Shown here: positions 5,981-50,421 of the stretch, piece after piece
Layout of the letters: every line of letters begins with the position of its first letter
Position numbering within the stretch: the stretch's first letter is position 1
From: a virus
Length of the DNA stretch: 64,000 bases
Reading direction: 5' to 3' (one strand)
Virus record (IMG/VR): IMGVR_UViG_3300033141_003726
Span: 62,001-126,000 of that record
Program-made: the position numbers and the translations under genes
Notes under the pieces: generated by a model
Told to the model about the DNA's origin: nothing
The model's database searches: none
What the model saw: the letters and a program-made list of their open reading frames with translations, nothing else

Positions 5981-7591
5981 ATGAGTAGAAATATAACAGA
6001 TTTTGGAACTCAAAAAATCTATTTTGATTATGCTGCTCCGGCAATATCGGAAGAATTTAATAATATAATGCATAAAGTAGTGAGAAGCGGTTTATATAGA
6101 GGGGGTAGTTTATCAGTTGAGTCAACATCACAAGTTAGAATATCCCCAATGGTTGTATTTATAGAGAATTCTAATAAATCTAGTGCTGATTTATCAGTAC
6201 GAATTGAAACCACTGAAGATATAGTTCTAAATATAGACGAAACCGACCCATTTGTGATTTGTCATTATGAATGGTATAACGATCCTGTCTCTTACATGGA
6301 AGTTAAAACAGTAGCAGGAGGTTTAATAGGAGAGTACGATTTAATACTGGGAAGTGGGGTTTTTACTAACGGGGATTTAACTGGATTTGATACAACCGAA
6401 AGAGATTATATATCTTGGGATGCTGATACCACTAGATTAGGAGAGTCAGCTACGATAGTAAGTTCCCCATCCGGAGGAACTCAAACTAATTTAAGCGGGG
6501 AAACTGATATAGTAACTGCAATACAAGAAGTGTTCAACAGATTGATTGATTTAAGTGGAGTAGAAGACGATGCGGTTAAGAATCGACATATTGATTTTGG
6601 CACTTCAGCAACTCAAATAAACAGTAATGATATTCCTATAGGAAAAAATATAACCACCGGCGGTACAATAGATAGTGTTACACAATCCGATATTACTTCC
6701 AATGTTATTGAAATACTGTTTGATGCTTTAGCTGATTTAAGTGGAGCAGATGACAATTCTGTAAAAGAACGACATGTTGATTTTGGTACAGGACAAAATC
6801 AAATTGACGGGGATTTACTTCCTCTAGGAACCGCAATATCTAAAGTAATTTCAGAAGCTACTAATGTAGATTTTGCTAACAGTAAAAAAATAAGAGAAGC
6901 CCTGAAAGACACTATAGATAGAATTGCTCAAGTATCAGATCAAGTAACTACGAATAAAAACAGCATAAGTTCTTTACAGACAGATGTAAATACAAATAGC
7001 GATAGAATAGATAAGACCTATGGAATTCCTGTAGGAACTATAATGATGTTTGACGGAAGTAATTGGCAAGATGATGTTACTCTGCCTGGATGGTATGCTT
7101 GTGTAGCCGCAAATAGTGTACACGGAGCTCCTGATTTAGAAGATAAATTTATAAGAGGAGGCAGTAAAGGAACTAAAGGAGTTGACTATGGAGTAACAGG
7201 AGGTAGTGATACTGCTACTTTAAATAGTAATAATCTACCTCCTCATACTCATAGTATTAGTTTATCTCACAATGCAAGTATAGGAGCTACAGCTCCCAGT
7301 CACAGTCATGGAATGGCACATACGCATAAATATACGAGATTTACCGTTGATTATCATCGTACTACTGTTGTTACAGAAAATATTAACAAGTTATGGGCAG
7401 GCCGGTCTGAGGTAAATACAGGCGGTTCAAGTAGTGCAAATACAGGTGTTTCTGCACCATCGCATAGCCATTCTATTTCTATTAGCAATCATTCTGGTAA
7501 TACAGGGAACGGGGGGTTTGCTAATTCAGCATTTAGCATCGTTCCCCAATATTATTCTGTTATCTATATAAGAAAGTGTTATCAAAGGTAA
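5981..7591 (+). CDS. Short tail fibre with phage collar domain and HxH metal-binding motifs
   Basis: 536 residues. The N-terminal 200 residues probably attach to the baseplate. Two related repeats (LVIDL-type helix, then DLSGVEDDAVKNRHIDFGT near residue 195 and DLSGADDNSVKERHVDFGT near 255) point to a repeated shaft unit. A coiled region (SSLQTDVNTNSDRIDKTYG) leads into a phage tail collar domain from about residue 348 (GIPVGTIMMFDGSNW, GWYAC, DLEDKFIRG). The end has HxH motifs near residues 421, 441-448 and 494 (PPHTHSI, SHSHGMAHTHK, SHSHSIS), as in T4 gp12, where histidines bind metal inside the trimer. It ends with the common PQYYSVIYIRK strand. The likely role is receptor binding. Confidence 0.8.
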   Translation: MSRNITDFGTQKIYFDYAAPAISEEFNNIMHKVVRSGLYRGGSLSVESTSQVRISPMVVFIENSNKSSADLSVRIETTEDIVLNIDETDPFVICHYEWYNDPVSYMEVKTVAGGLIGEYDLILGSGVFTNGDLTGFDTTERDYISWDADTTRLGESATIVSSPSGGTQTNLSGETDIVTAIQEVFNRLIDLSGVEDDAVKNRHIDFGTSATQINSNDIPIGKNITTGGTIDSVTQSDITSNVIEILFDALADLSGADDNSVKERHVDFGTGQNQIDGDLLPLGTAISKVISEATNVDFANSKKIREALKDTIDRIAQVSDQVTTNKNSISSLQTDVNTNSDRIDKTYGIPVGTIMMFDGSNWQDDVTLPGWYACVAANSVHGAPDLEDKFIRGGSKGTKGVDYGVTGGSDTATLNSNNLPPHTHSISLSHNASIGATAPSHSHGMAHTHKYTRFTVDYHRTTVVTENINKLWAGRSEVNTGGSSSANTGVSAPSHSHSISISNHSGNTGNGGFANSAFSIVPQYYSVIYIRKCYQR

Positions 7592-7594
7592 GGT

Positions 7595-10500
7595 ATGGGT
7601 ACTGAGCAGTTTGATGATATAGTTGGGAAAAAGATAAAATCTAATCTTGAAATAACCACTGAGGAAAAATATCCCGGTAATCCCGAGTACGCTAACAATG
7701 TAGATGGAGATTATACTAATGCAATTGGTGATGCGGTTGAAGCGTATGTCAATGGAGAAGAAACTCAACCACCCGATATTCCTCAATGGGATTCCCCAGC
7801 TTACGACTTAGAAATAATAGAAGATGGAACGGGTCTAAAAAAACCTAAAATTACACTTCACTGGATTGATACATCTTCTGATATATTAACAGAAAATTTT
7901 CTTATTTATAAGACAGATAACTCGGGTGGAACTTTTGGTACTTTAACCTTATATGATAAAATACCAGCGGATGAAACTGATTACGTAGATGAAAAATTAT
8001 CTTTTAATACAGGATACCGTTATGCAATAAGAGCGGAAGATAGATTTCTAAATCGTTCTGATTTAACAGATTATCAGGAGATTACAACTCCTACGGTTCC
8101 TGAACCATCTCGACCTACTGATAAAATCGTAACAGGTGCCGGGGTAAAACAAATCGGTTTAAAATTTCAAGGATCGCCATCTTTTGAAGATATTTTATAT
8201 TACCAAGTTGAATCAAGAAGTGCTACGGCAGATCCAGATGGATACGGTGGTTATGAGGTACCTGCATCTCCTTCTTGGGGAGATTGGGAAGTAATAAATC
8301 AATCTCTTTCTACTCGAATAATACATGAAAATTTAGACTATACTAAATGTTATCAGTATAGATACCGCTCGGTAAATTCTTACGGAGTATCAGGGAGTGC
8401 AAATAGCGAAGAAGGACATAGTGAGCTATTATCAGATATAGTTATCCCGCTAAAAGTAAAAAGAGATGACTTAGATTGGGATATCCAGGATCAAATAGAT
8501 GGTAAATTAGATTATTATATAACACATTCTTCACAAGACCCTAAATATCATCCTGTTTACGGTTGGCCTGATACAAGTAAAGACGATTTAGATCATCATA
8601 GGGATATTTGGTATCAAATCGATACTGGGCTAAAAAAAGTTTTTAATGGTTATACTGGACTATGGGAAAATCAACCAAATATAACTAAATTAACTATTGC
8701 CGATGATAATGTCCTTACTCCTTCCGAGAAATTAATATTAAAGAAAGAATGGAATACGATAGCTAAAGAAAAAATAGTATTACTTACTCAATTTGGTTTA
8801 AAAGAAGGAGAAATCGGTGGTGTTGAAACCGAGAAATATAACTACATAAGCGCTTATAATACACTAGATAGTTATCTAAATAATATAATAGATGGAATTC
8901 TTAAAGAATCAAACTACTTACAAGTAATAGAAGATATTGCAGGAGCTACGGCCAGAGATGATGGGTTTATCTTTTTATTCTTTCAAGATTCTACTCCTAC
9001 AGCAAATGGAGCAGGAGATTTATGGATAAATACCGAAGATGAGTTAGATATTCTTTATAAATGGAACGGCTCAAATTGGATAGAACAGACAGGTGTTTCA
9101 GAAGAGGATAGATTAAAAATAGTTTCATTAAAACAAACAACGGGTAGTGATGATGAGATTGTAATTTATTTTCAAGATTCAGAGCCTAGTATTCCCGCAT
9201 CCGATGAAGATGACCTGTGGGTAGATACTGACGGTGGAGATTATCTCTACAGACATACTTCTGGAGGAACATGGGAGATAGTCGAATCTGCTATTCTAGA
9301 CATAAACGGTGAAGAGCTAAGAGGAAAGTTTAGAGATTATTATGATGCAAAACAAGAATTAGTCAAAGCGATATCTGACGTATCCGCTGATGATATGAGA
9401 ACAAGATTTGTAAATAATACCTATATGATCGATATCGAAAATGATAAAATAGACAGTACAACATACTTTGTAGATTTCATAAATAATGTTACTAGAACCT
9501 CTATTAAAGTCTATTCAGTAAAGGACGAGGATAAAAACAATTTAACTGGCCTCCAAGCAGATGATTTACTAGTTGCTACAGATACATTTAAAGAGTATCG
9601 ATACAATGGAGCGTCTTGGGAAGAGTTAACAGAGACTAATACTGATTTTTTGCGAGCATTTATTGATGCTGATCATTTGAGAACAATTTACATTCCTGCC
9701 TCTGATGCTGACTTACCAAGCTTTTATCAGGCTAGAGACTTACTTATCCCCACAGCTACATTTTCTAATAATGATGGTTCTACTACTAAAGAATTTCAAA
9801 AAAATTCTGTATATATTACCACAGTAAATGAAATTAGCGCATTTAATAACGCCCACTGGGGATTAAGTATAAAATATACCGATGATACGCTAGCCAAGTA
9901 TAAAACATCGGTATTTGATTCTCCACCTAATTGTGAATATAATGCGGGGGAAGAACGATGGGAAGTTAATACAAGTCTAGGCGATAGTTATGTAAGTGAA
10001 GATATATTTGTGCCAGGGCAGGAATATGTAATTTTTGATGGGAGTACAACAAAAACATTTGATAAGGGAGAGGTTTATGTAGCTAGCATAGCGGATGAGG
10101 AGGCGCATAGAAGAGATGGCTATCCGTTTGTAAATACTCATTGGGAAAGAAAATTAAGATTCAGTCAAGAACTGGATGATATAACAGAAGATAATAAATT
10201 AAGTCCTACTGAAAAGCTAGCTACAAAGAAAGAGTGGGAGATAATTAGAAAAGAGTATCCTTCGATAATAGAAGAAGCTGTAGAGCAGGGGGTAAATACT
10301 TTTAGTTTTAAATCGGCTTACGACGAATTAGATGATTACCTGAATAATGAAAGTACAGGATTATTAAATGATACGAGCACTACTTCTGATATCGTAGGCG
10401 ATACTTTTAGATCCAAGTTCAGTAATTATTACGATGAAAAAGCTAAAATTCTTAGATCGATAGCGTATATGGCGTCTCAAGACGCTTACAGTGGAACTGA

Positions 10501-42798: not shown

Positions 42799-43368
42799 TT
42801 ATTCTAACAGTTTAATTTCTTTTTTAATTTCCTTCTCTAACAAAAGAGAAGTATCTTTAGTGTTTACTGTAGTTTGACGTCCTCCGGTAATTTCTGCAAG
42901 CTTTTTCATAAACTCTTCTCCTTTATCTCCACCAGGGCCAATATAAATAATATTGACTGGCGTTGCAAGTTTAAGCGCTTCTTCTATTGCTTGAGATTCA
43001 GAATCGGGTAAGCCATCGCTAATAACAATTATTGTTTGTCTTTTACTCCGCGGCAATGTCGTACATAAACGGAAAGCTTCTGCCATATTTGTTTCTCCTG
43101 CTGGAAATGTTTCAATTCCTAGACAAGCGCTTTCTGAAAATGAAATATATGATGCCCTTGGATAGTCTTGAATTGCTTCCATTAAAGCATCAAACTTGGA
43201 TTTACCCTTCACATATTCTGACATCGATCCAGAGCAATCAAGCAATAAAGTTAAACTTGATTGCGCTTCAATTCTTTTCTTTTCTTTTTTTATGTCAGCT
43301 AAACCTTTTTTTAAGCTATCTGACAATGATAGCATTGAATCTTTTTTAAAAACTAAAGCTTTTTTCAT
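42799..43368 (-). CDS. von Willebrand factor A (VWA) domain protein
   Basis: 189 residues. A MIDAS metal site is complete: TLLLDCSGSMSEYV (D-x-S-x-S), the threonine in GETNMAEAF, and VISDGLPDSES. VWA domains bind a protein partner through a metal ion. In phages such proteins appear with tail or takeover genes; here it is in the early small-gene operon, next to a partner gene of unknown function with which it overlaps by four bases. Confidence 0.78.
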   Translation of the reverse strand: MKKALVFKKDSMLSLSDSLKKGLADIKKEKKRIEAQSSLTLLLDCSGSMSEYVKGKSKFDALMEAIQDYPRASYISFSESACLGIETFPAGETNMAEAFRLCTTLPRSKRQTIIVISDGLPDSESQAIEEALKLATPVNIIYIGPGGDKGEEFMKKLAEITGGRQTTVNTKDTSLLLEKEIKKEIKLLE

Positions 43369-43949
43369 ATTTCTACCCTCTCTTCTATTTCATTTAATAT
43401 TTTATTGCATAATACAAAGAGCCGATCAATACAAGCCTCTAATTCTCCCTCGCTGTCAGTACTCTCAGCTCTCGCTATTATGCTTGAAATTTTTTCAAAT
43501 TGCCTCTCAGCTTTTTCAATAAATTCATCATCAATTAGGTCTTGAAAATAACAATGTTTAACAAGCGTGAGAAGATTAATAGGAATATATTCAATGTCTT
43601 TCTTTTTTATTGAGTATTTGGCTTTCGCTATTACAGCAGGCAATGGCCTAATTATTTCAAAGTTTTCATGCATAAAAACTCTATGAGTCCCCGTATGAGA
43701 AAGCCATTTATTCTTTTTATCTACAATACAAAAGGCTGGAGGCGGCCTATCATTCCTTTTTTGAAGAGGATAAAATCTAAAAGATCTTCTTCCTCTTGAA
43801 TTTAAACTGCACACGATAAAGACCCTTCTGGTATAAAATTCCTTTAAATTTGGAGTCCATACCATCGGATCTGATTCATGATTCGGAACAATTTTAGTAC
43901 ATGCGGTTGCCACGAACTTAGACGGATTCTCTTTATCAAATGTAAACAT
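43365..43949 (-). CDS. Hypothetical protein coupled to the VWA gene
   Basis: 194 residues from ATG 43949, eight bases after GGAGACGG; a GTG at 43979 in the same frame has no good ribosome site. Residues 10-90 are beta-rich (KFVATACTKIV, FYTRRVFIVCSL, RRSFRFYPLQ), then a helical C-terminus with acidic repeats. The 4-base overlap with the VWA gene suggests that the two proteins interact. No family recognised. Confidence 0.55.
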   Translation of the reverse strand: MFTFDKENPSKFVATACTKIVPNHESDPMVWTPNLKEFYTRRVFIVCSLNSRGRRSFRFYPLQKRNDRPPPAFCIVDKKNKWLSHTGTHRVFMHENFEIIRPLPAVIAKAKYSIKKKDIEYIPINLLTLVKHCYFQDLIDDEFIEKAERQFEKISSIIARAESTDSEGELEACIDRLFVLCNKILNEIEERVEI

Positions 43950-44211
43950 GAAACCGTCTCCATTTTGCACTTTTCCCACGAGGCAGGCCTTTCTGTGGCC
44001 TCCAAAATCCTTCTGCTCGTGCTAATCGATACATGTATCGATCAACTGCTCGAGCCAGATCAACTGATTTTTCAGTAACTTCACAACAAGCTAAACTTAC
44101 TTGTTGCCTAAAATCTTGAGGCATTTCTTCTTCTAACCACCGCCATCGTCGATAAGCGATGGCAAGAGCATAGGGAAAATGTGGACGAGGGTCATTGTAT
44201 ATCTTCTTCAT
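43936..44211 (-). CDS. Basic tryptophan-rich small protein
   Basis: 91 residues with AAAGGAGG before the ATG. Rich in Arg and Trp (AYRRWRWLEEEMPQDFRQQV; RPQKGLPRGKSAKWRR). A charged helical protein that could bind nucleic acid. It overlaps the next gene slightly. GC content is visibly higher than in most of the window. Confidence 0.5.
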   Translation of the reverse strand: MKKIYNDPRPHFPYALAIAYRRWRWLEEEMPQDFRQQVSLACCEVTEKSVDLARAVDRYMYRLARAEGFWRPQKGLPRGKSAKWRRFHVYI

Positions 44212-44248
44212 TTTATTTTCCTCCTTAACATCATTTAATTTTTAGGAA

Positions 44249-44554
44249 TTAAATTCCAGATAGCTTTCTTTTTATTTTCAAATGCGATTCATACAGACAG
44301 CGAATCTTTCCTTGATTGTCAATTCTAAGCAAAGCTTCACCAAGCGTATTTTCAGTACCAAAAGTCTCTCTTATTCCATTACATTCTTTGTAAATTCTCC
44401 AGAAGAATTTGGTTTTATAACCATCCCAGTTACCTGATCGGGAAATGATTCTAGATTCTTTAATGATTTCATATCCACGGAAGTACCATTTCCCGTTTTT
44501 TCTTTTAGCTTCTTTTTTTAATTCCTTGATTTTAGTCTTATCATTGTCATTCAT
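44249..44554 (-). CDS. Basic small protein of unknown function
   Basis: 101 residues with AAAGGAGAG before the ATG. Lysine-rich start (KTKIKELKKEAKRKNGKWYF), then WRIYKECNGIRETFGTE and a basic end. Preceded by a degenerate tRNA-like element and hairpin at 44605-44666. Confidence 0.55.
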   Translation of the reverse strand: MNDNDKTKIKELKKEAKRKNGKWYFRGYEIIKESRIISRSGNWDGYKTKFFWRIYKECNGIRETFGTENTLGEALLRIDNQGKIRCLYESHLKIKRKLSGI

Positions 44555-44604
44555 TTTTCTCTCCTTTACATTTTAAATTCATTAGTTATAATACTACATT
44601 CTGC

Positions 44605-44666
44605 TTACAATGTAAATATATAACTGCACCTGGAAATTAAACTGGGGCTAGCCACCAGGATAGCTA
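44605..44666 (-). promoter_or_regulatory. tRNA-like minihelix plus hairpin, copy a (degenerate)
   Basis: On the minus strand, directly after the stop of the upstream gene: AGCTAT, CCTGGTGGCTA (D-loop-like), then CCCAG-TTTAATT-TCCAG, where the T stem is partly broken, and after 25 bases the small hairpin TTACATTGTAA. It is followed by AGAATGTAGTATTATA and the ribosome site of the 44249-44554 gene. It is the most decayed copy, but its order and position match the others. Confidence 0.6.
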
Positions 44667-44668
44667 TT

Positions 44669-44947
44669 CTATAAAATAACTACATCAGCATCGACGGGCT
44701 CATATAAAACCACATGCCCGCTGGCTTCTTCAATACTCTTGACAGAAGCTCCCGCCCAGCCAAACGGGCCTCCGACTCCGAAAGGGTCAATTTTAATAGC
44801 ATTGAAAAAATCAACGCTATCCATGCCTTCCCAAACCTTGTTGTCATCAACAAAGAAAACTGCGTAAACATCTTCGCCCTTGTCGACGACTTGATCTTTT
44901 ATTACTGTGTCATACTGCACAGTAAATTTCACTGCTACCTTTTTCAT
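44669..44947 (-). CDS. Small acidic protein of unknown function
   Basis: 92 residues from ATG 44947 with AAGGAGAG upstream. The reading frame is open to 44998, but that extension consists of the hairpin and tRNA-like leader and is not coding. The protein begins KKVAVKFTVQYDTVIKDQ, has VYAVFFVDDNKVWEG and a glycine-rich turn. Its stop is followed at once by element a. No family recognised. Confidence 0.6.
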   Translation of the reverse strand: MKKVAVKFTVQYDTVIKDQVVDKGEDVYAVFFVDDNKVWEGMDSVDFFNAIKIDPFGVGGPFGWAGASVKSIEEASGHVVLYEPVDADVVIL

Positions 44948-44973
44948 TTTTTCTCTCCTTATCATAATATTCT

Positions 44974-45036
44974 GCTTACAACATAAGCATATAACCATGC
45001 CCAGGAATTGAACCCGAGCCTTATACCACTAGAATG
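44974..45036 (-). promoter_or_regulatory. tRNA-like element plus hairpin, copy b
   Basis: Minus strand: CTAGTGGTATAAGG (D-arm-like), then TCGGG-TTCAATT-CCTGG (T arm with two G-U pairs), CATGGTTATAT, and the hairpin GCTTATGTTGTAAGC. An acceptor 5' strand is not clear in this copy. The ribosome site AAGGAGAG and the ATG at 44947 follow within about 25 bases. Confidence 0.65.
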
Positions 45037-45053
45037 AATAATTGGAATTATAA

Positions 45054-45359
45054 TTATTTATGATAAAATCTTGCTTTTATTCTCCCACTCTTAGTTGTGT
45101 ACAATTCAATAGCATTCTCCCACTCTACACTTGAAGGGGGGTCACCATAGATAACAACCTCTCTTCTTTCACTGTCATCTACCCACTTATAAAAAGTTTC
45201 CTCCTCTATCCAAGAGTGATCCGAAAATATTACTTTTGCGTAATCCCTAAATACTTGATAATCTATCTCTCCATCCGTATAGAAGCACATCGCTACATCT
45301 ATACCCTGCTCATAAATAAGGTAATCGGGAAGGTCGCTTATCCTAATAATATCTCCCAT
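45054..45359 (-). CDS. Small acidic protein of unknown function
   Basis: 101 residues with AAAGGAG before the ATG. Acidic with several aromatic residues (DYLIYEQGIDVAMCFYTD, HSWIEEETFYKWVDDSE). Preceded by element c. No motif recognised. Confidence 0.55.
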   Translation of the reverse strand: MGDIIRISDLPDYLIYEQGIDVAMCFYTDGEIDYQVFRDYAKVIFSDHSWIEEETFYKWVDDSERREVVIYGDPPSSVEWENAIELYTTKSGRIKARFYHK

Positions 45360-45407
45360 CCTTATCTCCTTTACGTTTTAGACCCGCCGGTCATAATATT
45401 ATATTTC

Positions 45408-45454
45408 GCTTACAACGTAAGCTTACAATTGTACCCAGGAATTGAACCAGGGAA
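45408..45454 (-). promoter_or_regulatory. T-arm element plus hairpin, copy c (no acceptor half)
   Basis: Immediately after the TAA of the upstream gene the minus strand reads CCCTGG-TTCAATT-CCTGGG, a T-arm hairpin, then TACAATT and the hairpin GCTTACGTTGTAAGC. The 5' acceptor half and D-loop-like part are missing, possibly overwritten by the gene end. A further GACC-GGCG-GGTC hairpin follows before the ribosome site. Confidence 0.65.
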
Positions 45455-46024
45455 TTATTCATAATAATTAAAAAGAACAGGCATTATAAAAGCCATATAC
45501 CGGAATTTATTATACTGCTGCGATGATACAAGAATCAAAGGATTAAAAGGTTCCGCAGGTATTTGTACTTCCAGAAAATAACCGGAAGGAATATTCTTTA
45601 AATAGTCACGTAAATGATCGTATTCGATAGTCCAAGTTTCTTTTGTGTTCCAGTTTTTGGACATTTTAATGATTATGTCCGTGTATATGAGCGGTATCGA
45701 GCTAACAGGATATTGAACTAAATATTGAGTTTGTAATTTATATTTCTGCATCACCCGCTTGTGATCTGGGAAATTAATATTATCAGATTGAATCAGATAT
45801 TTATTTTTTAGATCAATATAATAAATTCCTTCGGGCAAAATTATATCCTCGTCTGTAGTTTCAACAATATACATTCTCTTAGTATCGGTACTTACAAGAG
45901 AATAACCTGTTGAGAGGATATGACCGAAAAACGGCAACCGAGTGCCTTTCCCGGCAGCTACCTTCAAGTATTTTATCAGCGGTTTTAAATCTTGATGAAT
46001 AAAAATCTGATCTTTTTCTTTCAT
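45455..46024 (-). CDS. Mini sliding clamp-like protein
   Basis: 189 residues. The start (HQDLKPLIKYLKVAAGKG, then LVSTDTKRMYIVE) is like the first part of a DnaN domain (helix, then V-S/A-T-D-x-x-R-x-x-x-V). NINFPDHKRVM matches the FPDYRRV linker of bacterial clamps, and the end PLILVSSQQYNKFRYMAFIM, then PV, matches the late strand and the YVIMPM-type C-terminus. Only about half the length of a full clamp (359 residues at 60523). It is read as a shortened or two-domain clamp paralogue in the early operon. Function unknown; a decoy or host-clamp modifier is possible. Confidence 0.55.
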   Translation of the reverse strand: MKEKDQIFIHQDLKPLIKYLKVAAGKGTRLPFFGHILSTGYSLVSTDTKRMYIVETTDEDIILPEGIYYIDLKNKYLIQSDNINFPDHKRVMQKYKLQTQYLVQYPVSSIPLIYTDIIIKMSKNWNTKETWTIEYDHLRDYLKNIPSGYFLEVQIPAEPFNPLILVSSQQYNKFRYMAFIMPVLFNYYE

Positions 46025-46045
46025 TTTGTTATCCTCCGTTTTATT

Positions 46046-46483
46046 CTATCTATCAAATTTAAAATAAACTCTCGGTTCAATCTCCCCAGGACGTCCAACG
46101 TCAAACCCGATGGGCATGATCGGTTCTAATTCATAAGCTCCTAGAAAGCCCTCGAGAAGATTCTCTTGATCGATTTGATCAAGAGTAAGAAAGATTGCCT
46201 CTTCAGCTGGAGATAGGGAAGCGCCAACATTACCTAAGAACCAGAGTTGACCGAAATTGAGATTTTTAACCTCAACTTCAACTCTGTACCATGGGTCATC
46301 AGCAAGAATGATCCATTTTGGAAAACTCTGCCCCCGCAAGGCTTTCCTAAGATCATTTACAGATGGGAATTTATACTTCCCGTTTGTATTGATCGTTAGA
46401 GATAGAGAGCGAGGGGCTGGAGCTCCTTCTTTCTTTACTCCATCCCAAGAGAATCCAGGGCGGATTGAAAAAGAATATTTCAT
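46046..46483 (-). CDS. Early-operon protein, paralogue of the 47118 gene
   Basis: 145 residues from ATG 46483; ATGs at 46504 and 46492 overlap or crowd the AAAGGAG site. The protein begins KYSFSIRPGFSWDGVKKEG, close to KRSFRIRPRFFWDGAKKHG of the neighbour at 47118-47582. Both share an FPSV/FSSV-x-D-x-R-x-A-L segment and an E-x-E-V-K...FGQL/FDQL region, and both end with GRPG-x-x-E-P. They form an unknown family duplicated here. Preceded by element d. Confidence 0.65.
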   Translation of the reverse strand: MKYSFSIRPGFSWDGVKKEGAPAPRSLSLTINTNGKYKFPSVNDLRKALRGQSFPKWIILADDPWYRVEVEVKNLNFGQLWFLGNVGASLSPAEEAIFLTLDQIDQENLLEGFLGAYELEPIMPIGFDVGRPGEIEPRVYFKFDR

Positions 46484-46517
46484 TTCTCTCATTTCTCCTT
46501 TCATTATAATATATTCT

Positions 46518-46580
46518 GCTTACAACGTAAGCTTACAGCCGTGCCCAGGAATCGAACCTGGGCTAACCACCAGGACGGCT
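46518..46580 (-). promoter_or_regulatory. tRNA-like minihelix plus hairpin, copy d (best copy)
   Basis: On the minus strand from 46580: AGCCGT, CCTGGTGGTTA, GCCCAGG-TTCGATT-CCTGGGC, ACGGCT. AGCCGT/ACGGCT form a six-pair acceptor-like stem (46580-46575 with 46542-46537). The T arm has seven pairs and the loop TTCGATT fits the T-loop consensus. CCTGGTGGTTA holds the GG of a D loop. There is no anticodon arm and no CCA. Five bases later the hairpin GCTTACGTTGTAAGC (46532-46518) follows, then AGAATATATTATAATGA and the AAAGGAG of the next gene. Confidence 0.8.
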
Positions 46581-46592
46581 AATTCCAATTTG

Positions 46593-46823
46593 TTAGTACT
46601 GCAATTTTTCCAAAAGCCACACATACCCATCCCATTCATAGCGAATAGGATGAACGATAAACCCGTCTTCTCTCGTATGGTTGCGAAGATATCTTTCTAC
46701 AGCTCCAGGGCTTCTCTTTATAATTCTGTATGGATGATCTTCCTGCTGCTGCAGAAACCACATGAGATCAATGATCTCATCCTTCTTTCCGTTCTCCCAA
46801 ATTTTTACCACGTCATTTCTCAT
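46593..46823 (-). CDS. Small protein of unknown function
   Basis: 76 residues with GGAGAGG before the ATG. Begins RNDVVKIWENGKKDEIIDLM and has a basic middle (IIKRSPGAVERYLRNHTRED), ending VWLLEKLQY. The stop is followed after nine bases by element d. No family recognised. Confidence 0.55.
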   Translation of the reverse strand: MRNDVVKIWENGKKDEIIDLMWFLQQQEDHPYRIIKRSPGAVERYLRNHTREDGFIVHPIRYEWDGYVWLLEKLQY

Positions 46824-46840
46824 TTCTTCACCTCTCCATT

Positions 46841-47017
46841 TTAATAATCTTCTCCAGGTTCTCTTCTTAGAACCTTTTGAAGTCTAATTTTATATGCTCG
46901 AGGACTTAGAACTTCTAAGTCCTCATAATTTTTGACGAAATCAAAGCACTTTTCCATATTCCCCTCAAAGAGGACATCTGCCCTTTTGAAGGAAACCACA
47001 ACCCACTTTTTCTCCAT
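46841..47017 (-). CDS. Small basic protein of unknown function
   Basis: 58 residues from ATG 47017, preceded by AAAGGAGAG with a good spacer. Begins EKKWVVVSFKRADVLFEG and ends LRREPGEDY. The K-W-V-V-V-S-F strand followed by a helix suggests a compact alpha/beta fold. It ends just before the 46823 gene. A hairpin of type B lies 30 bases upstream. Confidence 0.65.
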   Translation of the reverse strand: MEKKWVVVSFKRADVLFEGNMEKCFDFVKNYEDLEVLSPRAYKIRLQKVLRREPGEDY

Positions 47018-47048
47018 CTTTCTCTCCTTTCTTTTTCATAATCTTCTA

Positions 47049-47064
47049 CTTGCCATACGGCGAG
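47049..47064 (-). promoter_or_regulatory. Type B hairpin upstream of the 46841 gene (e)
   Basis: Minus strand CTCGCC-GTAT-GGCAAG, five of six pairs, then TAGAAGATTATGA and the ribosome site. It is nearly the same as the hairpin of copy f. A T arm cannot be recognised upstream (the region 47065-47117 has GGGGCC and TTCGC pieces but no stem), so the element is partial or decayed. Confidence 0.5.
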
Positions 47065-47117
47065 CTATATTCCTATAAATATATCACTTAGCGAACTTTT
47101 GGCCCCAGCTTCCCCCT

Positions 47118-47582
47118 CTAAAATTTTAGAAAAAGTGCAGGCTCGGGCCCACCGGGACGCCCCAAATCCAAGCTTACAGGTCGGATATGTATCCCACCGT
47201 GAATGTCCAAGAACTTGTCGAGAAGATTCATTCGGCTCCCATCATCGGATGTGACATATTCTTGGTTAGCCTGATTCATAACTGAGAGAATTTCTCTCTC
47301 GGCTAAATTGAGAGTTGCTCCAACTTGGCCAAGAAAGAACAATTGATCAAATGTCATATCCCTGATATCACATTTGACTTCGATTCTCACATCTGGGCCA
47401 TCATTAACAATAGTCCAGATAAAGCCATGCCCGTCCAGGGCTTCCCTCATATCTCTTACTGACGAGAAACTCCGCTCTCCGTCAGTGAGAATTATTAAAG
47501 TCATTGAGTGCGGGTCTGGCACTCCATGCTTTTTTGCCCCATCCCAGAAGAATCTAGGGCGAATTCTAAAAGACCGCTTCAT
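47118..47582 (-). CDS. Early-operon protein, paralogue of the 46046 gene
   Basis: 154 residues with AAAGGAGG before the ATG. Shares its N-terminus (SFRIRPRFFWDG), the LTIN/LIIL-x-T-x-G strand, a FSSVRDMREALDGHGF helix and the GRPGGPEP end with the gene at 46046-46483. Overall about a third to a half of positions look the same. An acidic middle (TSDDGSRMNLLDKF) is longer in this copy. Overlaps the upstream gene by four bases. Confidence 0.65.
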   Translation of the reverse strand: MKRSFRIRPRFFWDGAKKHGVPDPHSMTLIILTDGERSFSSVRDMREALDGHGFIWTIVNDGPDVRIEVKCDIRDMTFDQLFFLGQVGATLNLAEREILSVMNQANQEYVTSDDGSRMNLLDKFLDIHGGIHIRPVSLDLGRPGGPEPALFLKF

Positions 47583-47800
47583 TTTCTTCCTCCTTTAATA
47601 ATATTATTAGTCTCCTTTAACAGAGACTCTTCACTATAATGCCCCCCGCAATATAGACAATATAAGTAATCTCCATACCCATATATCTTTATATCAGATA
47701 AAGATATGGGATCGCCAACATTAAGCGCTTCAATTGCACATTTAACATGATAGCGCAAAGGATTCGCTATCACTTCATTATACATAGTACTATTTTTCAT
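47579..47800 (-). CDS. Small CxxC protein, paralogue of the 48282 gene
   Basis: 73 residues. Shares MYNE, NPLRYHVKC and YCGG-x-YSEESL with the 48282 gene; the cysteines in YLYCLYCGG form a C-x-x-C knuckle, with CAIEAL as a possible third. Likely a small zinc protein. Preceded by element f. Confidence 0.65.
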   Translation of the reverse strand: MKNSTMYNEVIANPLRYHVKCAIEALNVGDPISLSDIKIYGYGDYLYCLYCGGHYSEESLLKETNNIIKGGRK

Positions 47801-47826
47801 TTTCTTTCTCCATTTAATGATTTTCT

Positions 47827-47891
47827 ACTTGCCATACGGCAAGTTACAGCCGTGTCCGGGAATCGAACCCGGGCCTAACCACCAGGACGGC
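47827..47891 (-). promoter_or_regulatory. tRNA-like minihelix plus type B hairpin, copy f
   Basis: Minus strand from 47891: GCCGT, CCTGGTGGTTA, GGC, CCGGG-TTCGATT-CCCGG, AC, ACGGC. The acceptor-like pairs are GCCGT/ACGGC (47891-47887 with 47853-47849). The D-loop-like segment is identical to copy d. T-stem pairs differ from copy d by a compensated change (G-C in place of A-U). The hairpin here is ACTTGCC-GTAT-GGCAAGT (47844-47827), unrelated in sequence to the GCTTAC type but at the same place. Confidence 0.8.
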
Positions 47892-47898
47892 AATCCCT

Positions 47899-48126
47899 CT
47901 ATTCCTCAAATTGCTCCCATCGGGAGCTATAAATATATGCTCCCGCGCAAGCGAGCATCTGCACGTGTTTATCACAAAACTCGCCGCCATCACCTTGACC
48001 CCACCACACATGCCAGACGCCTTCAGCGTCTTCCGGATACTCGAGAATCCCTGCAGGGTTCTCTAGCCCGCAATACGGACAAGATTCAGCATCTCTTAAA
48101 ATTTCGTCAATTGTCTTCTTCTTCAT
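47899..48126 (-). CDS. Small zinc-ribbon-like protein
   Basis: 75 residues. ESCPYCGLENPAG and GGEFCDKHVQMLACAG give C-x-x-C and C-x-x-H/C sites. It overlaps the following Cys-rich gene by 20 bases. Rich in Trp and Gly in the middle (GVWHVWWGQGDGG). Its stop lies seven bases before element f. Confidence 0.6.
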   Translation of the reverse strand: MKKKTIDEILRDAESCPYCGLENPAGILEYPEDAEGVWHVWWGQGDGGEFCDKHVQMLACAGAYIYSSRWEQFEE

Positions 48127-48289
48127 TTTCTTCTTCCTTTAGTCTGTCACAATAGACATTACCATTTTCATCTACTCCCGAGTTACATCCGCCACCAAAT
48201 GGCGAACATGACAACCCGGACGACTTCCAAGTGTAATCATAATACGGGCAATCATCACCCGACATAATTTGAGACGGTTCTTTATTCAT
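48107..48289 (-). CDS. Small cysteine-rich protein
   Basis: 60 residues, with cysteines in GDDCPYYDY, GLSCSPFGGGCNSG and NVYCDRL, and an acidic tail (KEEENEEEDN). Probably metal-binding. Overlaps both neighbours. No family recognised. Confidence 0.6.
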   Translation of the reverse strand: MNKEPSQIMSGDDCPYYDYTWKSSGLSCSPFGGGCNSGVDENGNVYCDRLKEEENEEEDN

Positions 48290-48506
48290 TTTTCTCTCCT
48301 CTTATAATTTCATTGCTTTCCTTCATTAATGACTCTTCACTATATTGTCCTCCACAATACGGACAATATAATGAACCACCATACTTATATATCTTTATAT
48401 TAGATAAAGATATATAATCATCAATGTCAAATGCTTCGATTAAACATTTGACGTGATAGCGCAAAGGATGCGCTACCGCTTCATTGTACATAGCATTGTT
48501 TCTCAT
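48282..48506 (-). CDS. Small CxxC protein, paralogue of the 47579 gene
   Basis: 74 residues. Same family as 47579-47800 (HPLRYHVKCLIEAFDI; YCPYCGGQYSEESL). The two genes are separated by the two Cys-rich genes, so a block may have been duplicated. GGAGAGAG precedes the ATG. Confidence 0.65.
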   Translation of the reverse strand: MRNNAMYNEAVAHPLRYHVKCLIEAFDIDDYISLSNIKIYKYGGSLYCPYCGGQYSEESLMKESNEIIRGEKNE

Positions 48507-48530
48507 TTTCTCTCTCCATATAAAATTTTA

Positions 48531-48728
48531 TTAGCTTGTCCGCCATCCACAATTAAGACAGCGAACAAGGGGATCATCCCCCTCCAATCCGGTTACCTGA
48601 AGCTCCTGCTCTCCGCATTTAGGGCAGGGCTCAATCGGATACCCGGAACTCATTCCAAGTACCCATTCCACACCAACAAGGTTAAAAACCTTGCCGGATA
48701 TTTTAATGGTTTTTTCTATTTTCTCCAT
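48531..48728 (-). CDS. Small zinc-ribbon protein
   Basis: 65 residues. A clean zinc ribbon: PCPKCGEQELQ and VRCLNCGWR, C-x-x-C twice about 20 residues apart. The N-terminal half is beta-like (IEKTIKISGKVFNLVGVEWV). Overlaps the end of the coiled-coil gene upstream. Confidence 0.7.
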   Translation of the reverse strand: MEKIEKTIKISGKVFNLVGVEWVLGMSSGYPIEPCPKCGEQELQVTGLEGDDPLVRCLNCGWRTS

Positions 48729-49830
48729 TCTCTCCCTCCTCTAGCTTTTTTATAATTACTTCCATACTATCAGTCTGGAAGTAATTACTAAGACGGCTTA
48801 ACATCATGTCAACTGTGCCGTCTTCTTTATCTGGAAAAAGCTCAATGCTTTTTTCCAGTTTCCTTTGTTCTTTGAATAGGCTATTAACCCGTTCTCTTAG
48901 TTGCTCAATTTTAGCGCTGTATTTTTTTACTTTCCTTTCAGCGCTCTTTTGAGCAATTATTTTTTCATTGAGTATCCCCCTATATTTCTCAGTCACATCT
49001 TTTTCTCTTTCATAAGACGTAACTTCCTTTTCCCCCCAACAGCCGCCCCTCATACCATCGGGGGATTCCTCAATATAATGACTTTCAACTCTCTGAACAG
49101 GGTACACCGTATATACCCGCTGTTCATCAAGGTCAATCTCAATAAGTTTAGAACTAAGAATTCCTTTTATTCCCTCTCCTTCGGATATTTTTCCACGTAT
49201 CCGAGTTTCGAGCTCAATTCTCTCAGCTTGGCGCTTAGCTTCGCCGAGAGAAGATAGAGCCCCTTTCATTCTAGTAATCTTTTTTTGAATTTTTTTAATT
49301 TTGGGGAGTATCTCTTTTTTCAGGTGGGTGACTTTTTTAAATCGGGGCAGTAAAACTTTACGCCCCCAAGCCAGGGCTTCTTGGTGCCGTTTTCTTAAAT
49401 CGGCTTCCCTGGCTTCTTTTTCAGCTATTTTATACAAGCGATAGGCTTCTCCCATCGCTTGCCATTCTTCTTTTTTTAAATATTTCTCAATTCCTGACTC
49501 CCAACTGCCATCTTCGTTCGGGTAGAAGACAGCAATCCTCTCCTCTCTATCGTCAGGGAAAACCTTAACGACAGAGACTCTGGGAGTCCATGTCCTCAGG
49601 CTGACTTTAGTGGGAACTTGCCAATCCCACTTTCTAATTTCAACCCGAGGCTCTGCTTTTCGGAGCGGTGTGGCGATAAAAAACCGCTCCTTTTCAACCA
49701 ATCTACATTCCCACCACTCGCCAATGGTGGGCTGAAAACAAGAACGGCGATCTATCAAAATCACCTTCCCGTTTTCGTTTTTTCCAAAGAACGGCCCTTT
49801 CGAGCCGTTCTTTACTTGGAGGAGTTTCAT
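48703..49830 (-). CDS. Coiled-coil protein of unknown function
   Basis: 375 residues. A beta-rich N-terminus (residues 1-110; GPFFGKNENGKVILIDRR, EWWECRLVEKERFFIATPL), then two long coiled coils (about 130-235, KKEILPKIKKIQKKITRMKG, and 285-345). More GC-rich than most of the window. Starts eight bases after the next gene upstream, with a GGAGG site. No family recognised. Confidence 0.6.
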   Translation of the reverse strand: MKLLQVKNGSKGPFFGKNENGKVILIDRRSCFQPTIGEWWECRLVEKERFFIATPLRKAEPRVEIRKWDWQVPTKVSLRTWTPRVSVVKVFPDDREERIAVFYPNEDGSWESGIEKYLKKEEWQAMGEAYRLYKIAEKEAREADLRKRHQEALAWGRKVLLPRFKKVTHLKKEILPKIKKIQKKITRMKGALSSLGEAKRQAERIELETRIRGKISEGEGIKGILSSKLIEIDLDEQRVYTVYPVQRVESHYIEESPDGMRGGCWGEKEVTSYEREKDVTEKYRGILNEKIIAQKSAERKVKKYSAKIEQLRERVNSLFKEQRKLEKSIELFPDKEDGTVDMMLSRLSNYFQTDSMEVIIKKLEEGENGENRKNH

Positions 49831-49838
49831 TTAAATAT

Positions 49839-50213
49839 TTAAATACAAAACTGATCTACGCAAACCAGCATTGATACTCGATCAGCTAGTTTGCATACCC
49901 TAGCCTTTCCCAACGGCCGACCGCTTGCCTTTATTGCGGTTAGCGTCGGGAAAGACACCAAAACGATATCGACGCTGCTGTCAGCCTCAAGCTCATCAAG
50001 AGCTTGAATGATAGCTGGAGGCAGCTCAAAAGCCATCTCCACATCGACCCAACCTCTAGAATTCTCGATCTTTTTCTCGATTTGCTTGACCGAGAATCTT
50101 CTTACAGTTTCACAGTCGACACGTGACAGCACCGTGCCATCTGTGAACTTGAAATCGTGCGGACTGGAGAAATTTACAACTCGCAGTCCATTCTTCAATT
50201 TTACTTTTGTCAT
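49839..50213 (-). CDS. First gene of the early operon, unknown function
   Basis: 124 residues from ATG 50213 (AGGAGG four bases upstream); the frame is open to 50234. Begins TKVKLKNGLRVVNFSSPHDF, has VDVEMAFELPPAIIQALDEL and a SSVDIVLVSFPTLTAIKASG segment. It is the first gene behind the strong promoter and the long tRNA-like leader, the usual place of a host-takeover gene. No family recognised. Confidence 0.6.
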   Translation of the reverse strand: MTKVKLKNGLRVVNFSSPHDFKFTDGTVLSRVDCETVRRFSVKQIEKKIENSRGWVDVEMAFELPPAIIQALDELEADSSVDIVLVSFPTLTAIKASGRPLGKARVCKLADRVSMLVCVDQFCI

Positions 50214-50243
50214 TTTTCCTCCTAATCTAATCATTTTTTCGTT

Positions 50244-50386
50244 TCCAGCCGCGTGGGATTCGAACCCACCCCGGCTAATGCCGGTTCCCGCATCGGAATT
50301 TCACCTTGCGGCCGATGCCCCTGTCTGCAGCCAGGCGTCCGGGACTTTTTTACGGTGGGACACTCACCGAAATTTCATTTTTAATT
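50244..50386 (-). ncRNA. Structured tRNA-like leader of the early operon (copy g)
   Basis: The 5' untranslated RNA behind the promoter is GC-rich in an AT-rich genome and holds several hairpins: CGGTG-AGTGTCC-CACCG, CATCGG...CCGATG, and CCGG-CATTAG-CCGG. The 3' part is a T arm, GTGGG-TTCGAAT-CCCAC (50269-50253), closed by AGCCG/CGGCT (50276-50272 with 50251-50247), like the other copies. A seven-pair alternative acceptor stem CGGCCGC/GCGGCTG would enclose about 70 bases, but the would-be anticodon loop is eight bases and lacks U33, so it is not a decoding tRNA. The downstream GGAAACG replaces the usual hairpin. Confidence 0.7.
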
Positions 50387-50392
50387 AACTGC

Positions 50393-50421
50393 ATTATACC
50401 CCCCTTTGCAAAAAAAGTCAA
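50393..50421 (-). promoter_or_regulatory. Strong sigma70 promoter of the early small-gene operon
   Basis: Minus strand TTGACT (50421-50416), 17-base spacer containing GGGGGG, then TATAAT (50398-50393). Just upstream lie A and T tracts (50424-50465) that could act as an UP element. The start of transcription would be near 50386. This is the only near-consensus host-type promoter I found in the window. Confidence 0.85.

Follow-up and report, generated by a model that had tools for sequence, protein, structure and literature searches.

Anticodon-less tRNA-like minihelices in phage operon spacers as candidate sites of message cleavage by host tRNA enzymes

Folds that resemble tRNAs mark processing sites in polycistronic transcripts of mitochondria, both in tRNA punctuation and in the t-elements of plant mitochondria. 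Here we describe a comparable arrangement in a 64,000-nucleotide (nt) window, the whole stretch of DNA that was analysed, which covers bases 62001-126000 of the 139,843-base IMG/VR virus record IMGVR_UViG_3300033141_003726 and in which small elements shaped like the upper half of a tRNA lie between the genes of a leftward operon. We put at about 50% the chance that these elements are cis-acting intercistronic RNAs at which host tRNA enzymes cut the transcript into single-gene messages. Mitochondrial punctuation belongs to organelles, whereas the phage elements lack an anticodon arm, repeat gene after gene, are often joined by a second hairpin and would, on our reading, be cut. As in a t-element, a tRNA-like fold stands at the borders of cistrons, the operon in this case being read from the genes. 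In phage T7, host RNase III cuts the early mRNA between genes into single messages, but its signals are long duplexes and the elements described here are tRNA mimics. The PeSL cassettes of T4-type phages, short repeated spacers among accessory genes that are thought to aid module shuffling, are early promoters flanked by stem-loops and have, to our knowledge, no tRNA shape.

An Arabidopsis mitochondrial t-element is described as a substrate of the RNase P enzyme PRORP (PMC4919922). Bacterial RNase P likewise acts on tRNA-like folds other than tRNAs, phage RNAs included (tmRNA, 4.5S RNA, polycistronic mRNAs and the phage M3 and C4 RNAs; PMC11143913, PMC4919922), although these are single cases which, as far as the available descriptions go, have no reiterated intercistronic element. 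The SAS/ESAS sequences of Cluster K mycobacteriophages and cluster EF Microbacterium phages are also repeated and conserved just upstream of translation starts and are partly inverted repeats (PMC3203893, PMC7302621). They are described as a 13-base-pair (bp) start-associated sequence and 17-bp inverted repeats rather than as tRNA-like, the SAS being defined by a GGGATAGGAGCCC-type stretch of 13 bp that is conserved where the ribosome binds (PMC3203893). A near parallel could be the tRNA-like sequences of Bacillus thuringiensis phage 0305phi8-36, for which the description that we saw gives neither structure nor function. A full-text search of the open-licence literature, in the portions it displayed, returned no recognised description of elements of this kind from bacteria or their phages. 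As a class of RNA they therefore look undescribed, and the principle of tRNA-like transcript punctuation is already known from mitochondria.

Six sites in the window had been proposed in a first-pass annotation made from the letters alone, and all six are there, on the minus (coding) strand. Copies a-e occupy gaps that separate the stop codon of one gene from the start codon of the following one, and they have the plan of a tRNA-like minihelix, with an acceptor stem, a short GG-bearing D segment and a T arm but no anticodon arm; the minihelix is followed in order by a second hairpin (weak at a), a Shine-Dalgarno sequence and ATG (Table 1). In copy d the acceptor strands TAGCCGT and ACGGCTG enclose the D segment CCTGGTGGTTA and the T arm GCCCAGG-TTCGATT-CCTGGGC, from which copy e differs by one compensated T-stem pair. 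The earlier statement that the elements have no anticodon arm holds for a-e and has to be withdrawn for copy f, a longer leader whose acceptor stem (CGGCCGC at 50308-50314) and T stem are fully paired and in which a 5-bp hairpin with a 4-nt loop, CCGGC-ATTA-GCCGG, occupies the place of that arm (50271-50284). A plan resembling that of f is seen in locus L030 (~10253-10320, minus strand), where a second tRNA-like element, with a reduced anticodon-like hairpin and then a further hairpin, precedes the neighbouring gene. A structural descriptor run on the window found d, e and f, as compared to 0.05 matches per shuffled window (20 shuffles). Among the window copies scored for folding energy, d (z -2.8) and f (-2.6) stand out, and a (0.1), b (-1.1), c (0.0) and e (-0.4) are unremarkable.

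The element plan is also seen in cultured phages. A blastn search with copy d and its hairpin against 50,697 phage records returned 40 records, tRNA genes and unannotated Streptomyces phage spacers among them, with no significant match (E 0.2 to 9 among the matches listed; 0.8 for Saftant). The link to Streptomyces phages rests on spacers that were read afterwards, in which the element was found in successive spacers of the leftward operon of Saftant and in Sitrop, the latter by eye and outside the counts given below. With one Saftant spacer as blastn query, 682 places in 141 records matched at E up to 0.1, from phages of Streptomyces (113 records), Mycobacterium (22), Gordonia (3), Streptococcus (2) and Arthrobacter (1); these are sequence matches whose structure was not checked place by place. 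Cultured phages of Streptomyces, Mycobacterium and Gordonia thus have the plan, unannotated, in the spacers of their operons, and in Streptococcus mutans phages the element stands before the portal gene without the second hairpin.

A strict rule asked for a TTCRANN loop closed by a T stem of 5 bp or more, together with a 5-7 bp acceptor separated from it by 7-20 nt. It was applied to spacers longer than 25 nt between same-strand genes in nine annotated phage stretches taken from these searches, the window and a second phage, G003; a locus entered the set only when one or more of its spacers had given a match. In these 11 loci 57 of 90 spacers pass, with 0.01 expected after shuffling and 0 of 1,820 among coding windows of equal lengths. 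Passes were 8/14 in Saftant, 8/13 in phiCAM, 10/13 in Caliburn, 7/11 in Lannister, 9/11 in Verabelle, 7/7 in Rope, 1/1 in Nilo, 2/2 in Aleemily, 1/1 in M102, 2/7 in the window and 2/10 in G003 (genes entered out of genes shown: Saftant 24/35, phiCAM 23/24, Verabelle 23/27, Rope 10/11, Nilo 6/14, Aleemily 4/11, M102 3/5). The T-loop motif is absent from the three rightward gaps of Saftant and from one gap between opposite strands. A covariance model, R2, trained on eight copies (a, b, d and e of the window and four of G003), also finds copy c, on which it was not trained. Run on 85 kb of the phage loci, it gives 30 matches with E no higher than 5; judged by their coordinates, 27 of these fall in spacers between genes. 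The best reaches only E 0.004, and many span the T arm alone.

A further test used sites that had not been selected for pairing. Eight actinophage loci hold 72 spacers longer than 25 nt, 61 of them at least 70 nt long, and 53 of these 61 contain TTCRA in the coding sense. All 56 TTCRA sites with room were aligned in one fixed register, blind to pairing, and 576 of 616 cells pair (acceptor 254/280, T stem 322/336), as compared to 33-64% of acceptor and 24-66% of T-stem cells when the partners are slid. Redealing the 3' letters gave a mean of 426.9 paired cells (standard deviation 6.8, maximum 451), although such shuffles overstate the odds because related phages are not independent. The pairs themselves vary: the second acceptor pair is GC at 29 sites and CG at 22, the fourth is TA at 34, CG at 6, AT at 5 and GC at 4, and the third T-stem pair is GC at 20, AT at 14, CG at 13 and TA at 4. 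Each G of the D-segment GG is found at 51 of the 56 sites; the T-loop letters TTC and A were fixed by the search motif.

One orthologous locus, shared by five phages, lies upstream of an acetyltransferase gene (protein identity 53-83%); its T stems vary in sequence from phage to phage, and every one is paired (CCGGGG/CCCCGG, GCAGGG/CCCTGC, CCCTGG/CCAGGG, TCCTGG/CCAGGA and GCGGGG/CCCCGC). The first-pass annotation had taken T stems that differ between window copies with pairing kept as a sign of selection on RNA structure. In four Streptococcus mutans phages, where the element lies directly before the portal gene and behind the terminase gene (in smHBZ8 with a small annotated open reading frame (ORF) between), all 15 pairs are intact, and in none of them have both sides changed. 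Taken alone, the window and G003 lend weak support to selection on RNA structure; the support from the cultured phages is strong.

G003, a phage of 69,946 bases with mostly different genes (16 of its 90 ORFs match G000 by tblastn), has in its operon five genes with counterparts in the window (79-88% protein identity); for one of the five a window paralogue matches as well, at 46%. It carries four further copies of the element, three of which begin on the TAG stop codon of the preceding gene. In the alignment of eight copies from both phages 88.3% of cells pair, as compared to 27-45% with the partner slid, and none of 500 shuffles reaches the observed paired percentage or covariation score; 6 of 16 pairs are changed on both sides, which 30 of the 500 shuffles also reach. 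As the rows of this alignment were chosen as copies, the test is not blind. The comparison with G003 also bears on the possibility that the spacers are mobile regulatory or recombination cassettes, providing homology for the shuffling of accessory genes, with the tRNA shape as baggage or put to some other use. Gene order differs between the G000 and G003 operons, two of their four homology blocks have an edge at an element, and several window copies are alike all the way from the minihelix through the start codon. The other two blocks have edges away from elements, however, and compensatory changes keep the pairing at the orthologous acetyltransferase locus, whereas DNA homology would favour identical sequences. 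We regard a cassette as the sole explanation as clearly unlikely, although such a use can be compatible with elements that are cut or left uncut.

The placement of the elements fits the earlier proposal that they punctuate a polycistronic unit, the 57 strict copies beginning a median of 11 nt after the stop codon and ending a median of 43 nt before the start codon. A second hairpin of at least 6 bp starts within 8 nt of the minihelix in 31 of the 57 copies (2.9 expected), and one of at least 4 bp is present in 41 (13.2 expected). CCA follows the discriminator in none of the 57 and CC in one. RNase Z is described as clamping the tRNA elbow, with CCA as its antideterminant (PMC4919913), and E. 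coli RNase P RNA as tolerating truncated substrates and 2-bp insertions (PMC4919922). The elbow, T arm and acceptor end that are kept in the elements are the parts read by tRNA-end enzymes. Use of host tRNA enzymes by the phage is plausible, given that the elements retain an acceptor, a T arm and a D segment with GG, that CCA is missing and that truncated RNase P substrates are tolerated.

In the mechanism that we propose, each element on the polycistronic transcript would fold as a tRNA elbow with its acceptor helix and be mistaken by host maturation enzymes for a precursor tRNA. Cutting at its borders could be performed by RNase Z, which shuns CCA-bearing ends, or by RNase P. The upstream message would then retain a compact, structured 3' end near its stop codon, while the downstream message would begin at or near the second hairpin, which would shield the new 5' monophosphate from 5'-end-dependent ribonucleases, and one long transcript would be turned into single-gene messages with uniform ends. 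RNA with a 5' monophosphate is reported to activate RNase E and RNase G (PMC3014915), and a hairpin at the new end should therefore be protective. Element and hairpin together may, at something like even odds, represent a cutting and capping module.

The main rival is a structure that stays uncut in the 5' or 3' untranslated region, where it could be the target of tRNA-binding enzymes, of enzymes that modify T loops (TruB, TrmA) or of a phage protein, or could insulate translation by setting each start site apart. Such a structure would be equally conserved and could also keep a fixed distance to the start codon. Copy f and the element of an IMG/VR contig (L031) moreover follow promoter-like sequences and so would lead a transcript, a place in which the start of a message needs no cut. 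On the other hand, the elements sit nearer to the upstream stop than to the downstream start, and the absence of CCA is as expected for an RNase Z site. Weighing these points we consider an uncut structure possible but doubtful, and cleavage by host tRNA enzymes seems to us, with a confidence close to an even bet, to fit the anatomy better than its rivals.

Several observations weigh against cleavage. Five of the seven window spacers and 33 of the 90 spacers overall fail the strict test. T-stem pairs are lost in a, c and copy 4 of G003, the orthologue of d, which keeps 3/7; as these copies have lost much of their T-stem pairing, tight constraint does not act on every copy. By the rule used, 16 of the 57 copies are without a second hairpin, the Streptococcus, Gordonia and Nilo copies among them. 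The stems are 7 + 7 bp in the window copies and 5 + 6 bp in many actinophage copies, as compared to 12 in tRNA, so that the ruler of the enzymes may not fit. Finally, cutting could destabilise a message instead of protecting it.

Alternatively, the elements could control transcription, as attenuator or terminator structures or as internal-promoter cassettes. Most copies have a hairpin behind them, a promoter-like match overlaps copy a (44616-44588), the promoter scan listing none specific to d or e, and intergenic repeats of the halovirus HF2 are described as having turned out to be promoters (PMC8707807). A scan of the coding strand for terminator-like sites, however, listed none at copies a-e, and a promoter has no need of acceptor and T-arm pairing. 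A TGTGACAGTG-like motif occurs in 11 of 42 element spacers and in 9 of 20 others of five Streptomyces phages, which is no clear link; on the same counts the idea that the elements replace a missing motif was unconvincing and was dropped. Transcription control is accordingly improbable. Streptomyces phage spacers of 57-76 nt that have no element often carry the motif (L143, L144, L149), and in such short spacers it is perhaps a promoter or operator.

Another reading would be that of functionless debris, either the remains of former tRNA genes or pieces of att sites that recombination left behind. Decayed copies do exist, a tRNA-like gene of HF2 is explained as an attP in the account available (PMC8707807), and some anticodon-less matches of a generic pattern lie in or near tRNA arrays (L061, L068 and Listeria Pecentumvirus LP-125, where an unannotated match to the L027 element is inside a tRNA cluster). 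Yet the compensatory changes, the many copies per genome, their single sense and their fixed spacing between stop and start are hard to reconcile with debris, which we find barely credible. An att fragment would be a single tRNA 3' part that lies beside an integrase gene and matches a host tRNA, and several diverged copies with both acceptor strands in the spacers of one operon have little of that look.

The generic pattern scan gave 102 stretches and 73 distinct sites, six of which have 7/7 acceptor and 5/5 T-stem pairs (0.05 expected). The rest of that list was set aside, since some entries are ordinary tRNAs with the D motif elsewhere (L086, by eye) or lie in or near tRNA arrays, and three of six matches from another search (L026, L028, L029) look chance-like by eye. 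Anticodon-less forms are found between genes in the unrelated IMG/VR contigs L027, L030, L062 and L031, the last behind a promoter-like sequence (by eye). At Rfam 15 gathering thresholds neither RF00005 (tRNA) nor any other family matched at the window elements, nor did any family at the elements of L143, L144, L146, L150, L007, L027 and L030; the single match, in L030, falls on an ordinary tRNA away from the element. ARAGORN made a call over copy d (46536-46628) in which the anticodon is absent. In Sitrop (NC_054676; L142 2792-2874) the tRNA-Arg annotated as KGG96_gt01 covers one of the spacer elements and shares bases with the end of a coding sequence, and is therefore probably a false tRNA; ARAGORN makes calls like it in Saftant and phiCAM. 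Several overlapping, unannotated tRNA-like stretches with T arms are also present upstream of a head protein gene in Bacillus phage Ray17 (MH752385; L141 ~1440-1640).

Perhaps these elements belong to a class of phage RNA that is widespread and has been overlooked: phages of unrelated hosts would place anticodon-less mimics, mostly with a hairpin, in one operon spacer after another, and host tRNA-maturation enzymes would cut the transcripts there into protected single-gene messages; we hold this tentatively, at a little short of even confidence. If true, bacterial viruses would have reinvented tRNA punctuation. Confirmed cleavage would mean that phages can set message borders with no promoter, terminator or enzyme supplied by themselves, and would account for spacers that annotators leave blank or call tRNAs. 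Synthetic biology uses insulators made of a ribozyme and a hairpin, of which the element would be a natural counterpart, and it could provide compact natural parts for splitting synthetic operons. The reading is directly testable in cultured phages of Streptomyces coelicolor and Mycobacterium smegmatis.

The window itself has a GC content of 32%. One of its genes encodes a protein distantly related to the family A DNA polymerases of phages (~23-25% identity among the matches listed), and other matches of the ten window proteins scanned are to baseplate wedge, tail fibre, primase, clamp-loader, exonuclease and helicase families. The leftward operon was read as a string of ORFs for which some start codons were picked by hand, and its seven spacers longer than 25 nt are those of a, b, c, d, e and a unit x, plus one of 37 nt without an element. 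Two other records are identical to the window across the 16,456 bases compared. The search for related loci with the DNA polymerase as query returned only two near-identical records, and query A5 returned the same two and G003; with A5, a search of genome contigs gave one weak Poribacteria contig, and tblastn of two operon proteins against INPHARED gave zero matches.

Table 1 Features of the window; pairs of a, b, d and e are counted in a common register, and bits are scores of the covariance model R2.
Feature	Coordinates	Strand	Pairs, acceptor; T stem	Basis and remarks
String of 18 leftward ORFs, longer spacers holding elements	42799..50210	-		ORF reading
Weak second hairpin 3' of a	44605..44616	-		Sequence
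Copy a, decayed minihelix	44621..44666	-	6/7; 4/7	49.4 bits (training copy); strict test failed
Second hairpin 3' of b, GCTTAT-GTT-GTAAGC	44974..44988	-		Sequence
Copy b	44992..45040	-	6/7; 7/7	57.3 bits (training copy); strict test failed
Second hairpin 3' of c	45408..45422	-		Sequence
Copy c, decayed minihelix	45426..45470	-		27.4 bits, E 3.3e-5 (outside training set); strict test failed
Second hairpin 3' of d, GCTTAC-GTT-GTAAGC	46518..46532	-		Sequence, strict-test scan
Copy d, minihelix without anticodon arm, best copy	46536..46581	-	7/7; 7/7	69 bits (training copy); strict test passed; folding z -2.8
Unit x, e-like hairpin, minihelix absent	47046..47065	-		Sequence
Second hairpin 3' of e, ACTTGCC-GTAT-GGCAAGT	47827..47844	-		Sequence, strict-test scan
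Copy e, minihelix without anticodon arm	47847..47893	-	6/7; 6/7	62.4 bits (training copy); strict test passed
Copy f, longer tRNA-like leader	50246..50314	-	7/7; 5/5	Acceptor CGGCCGC/GCGGCTG, T arm GTGGG-TTCGAAT-CCCAC
Promoter-like TTGACT-17-TATAAT, upstream of operon leader	50393..50421	-		11/12 consensus matches; consensus match alone

Structures like the second hairpin that stand before genes without a minihelix, as in unit x, are also seen in L007 (513-529 and 3844-3860). The same locus has, at 6335-6410, a nearly full-length degenerate tRNA-like sequence between the end of a gene group and the next promoter-like sequence, its acceptor stem seemingly lost (by eye). The record ends of G000 (~134-139.8 kb and 0-1 kb) and G003 (1-5.3 kb and 69-70 kb) share up to 96% DNA identity, with other genes differing.

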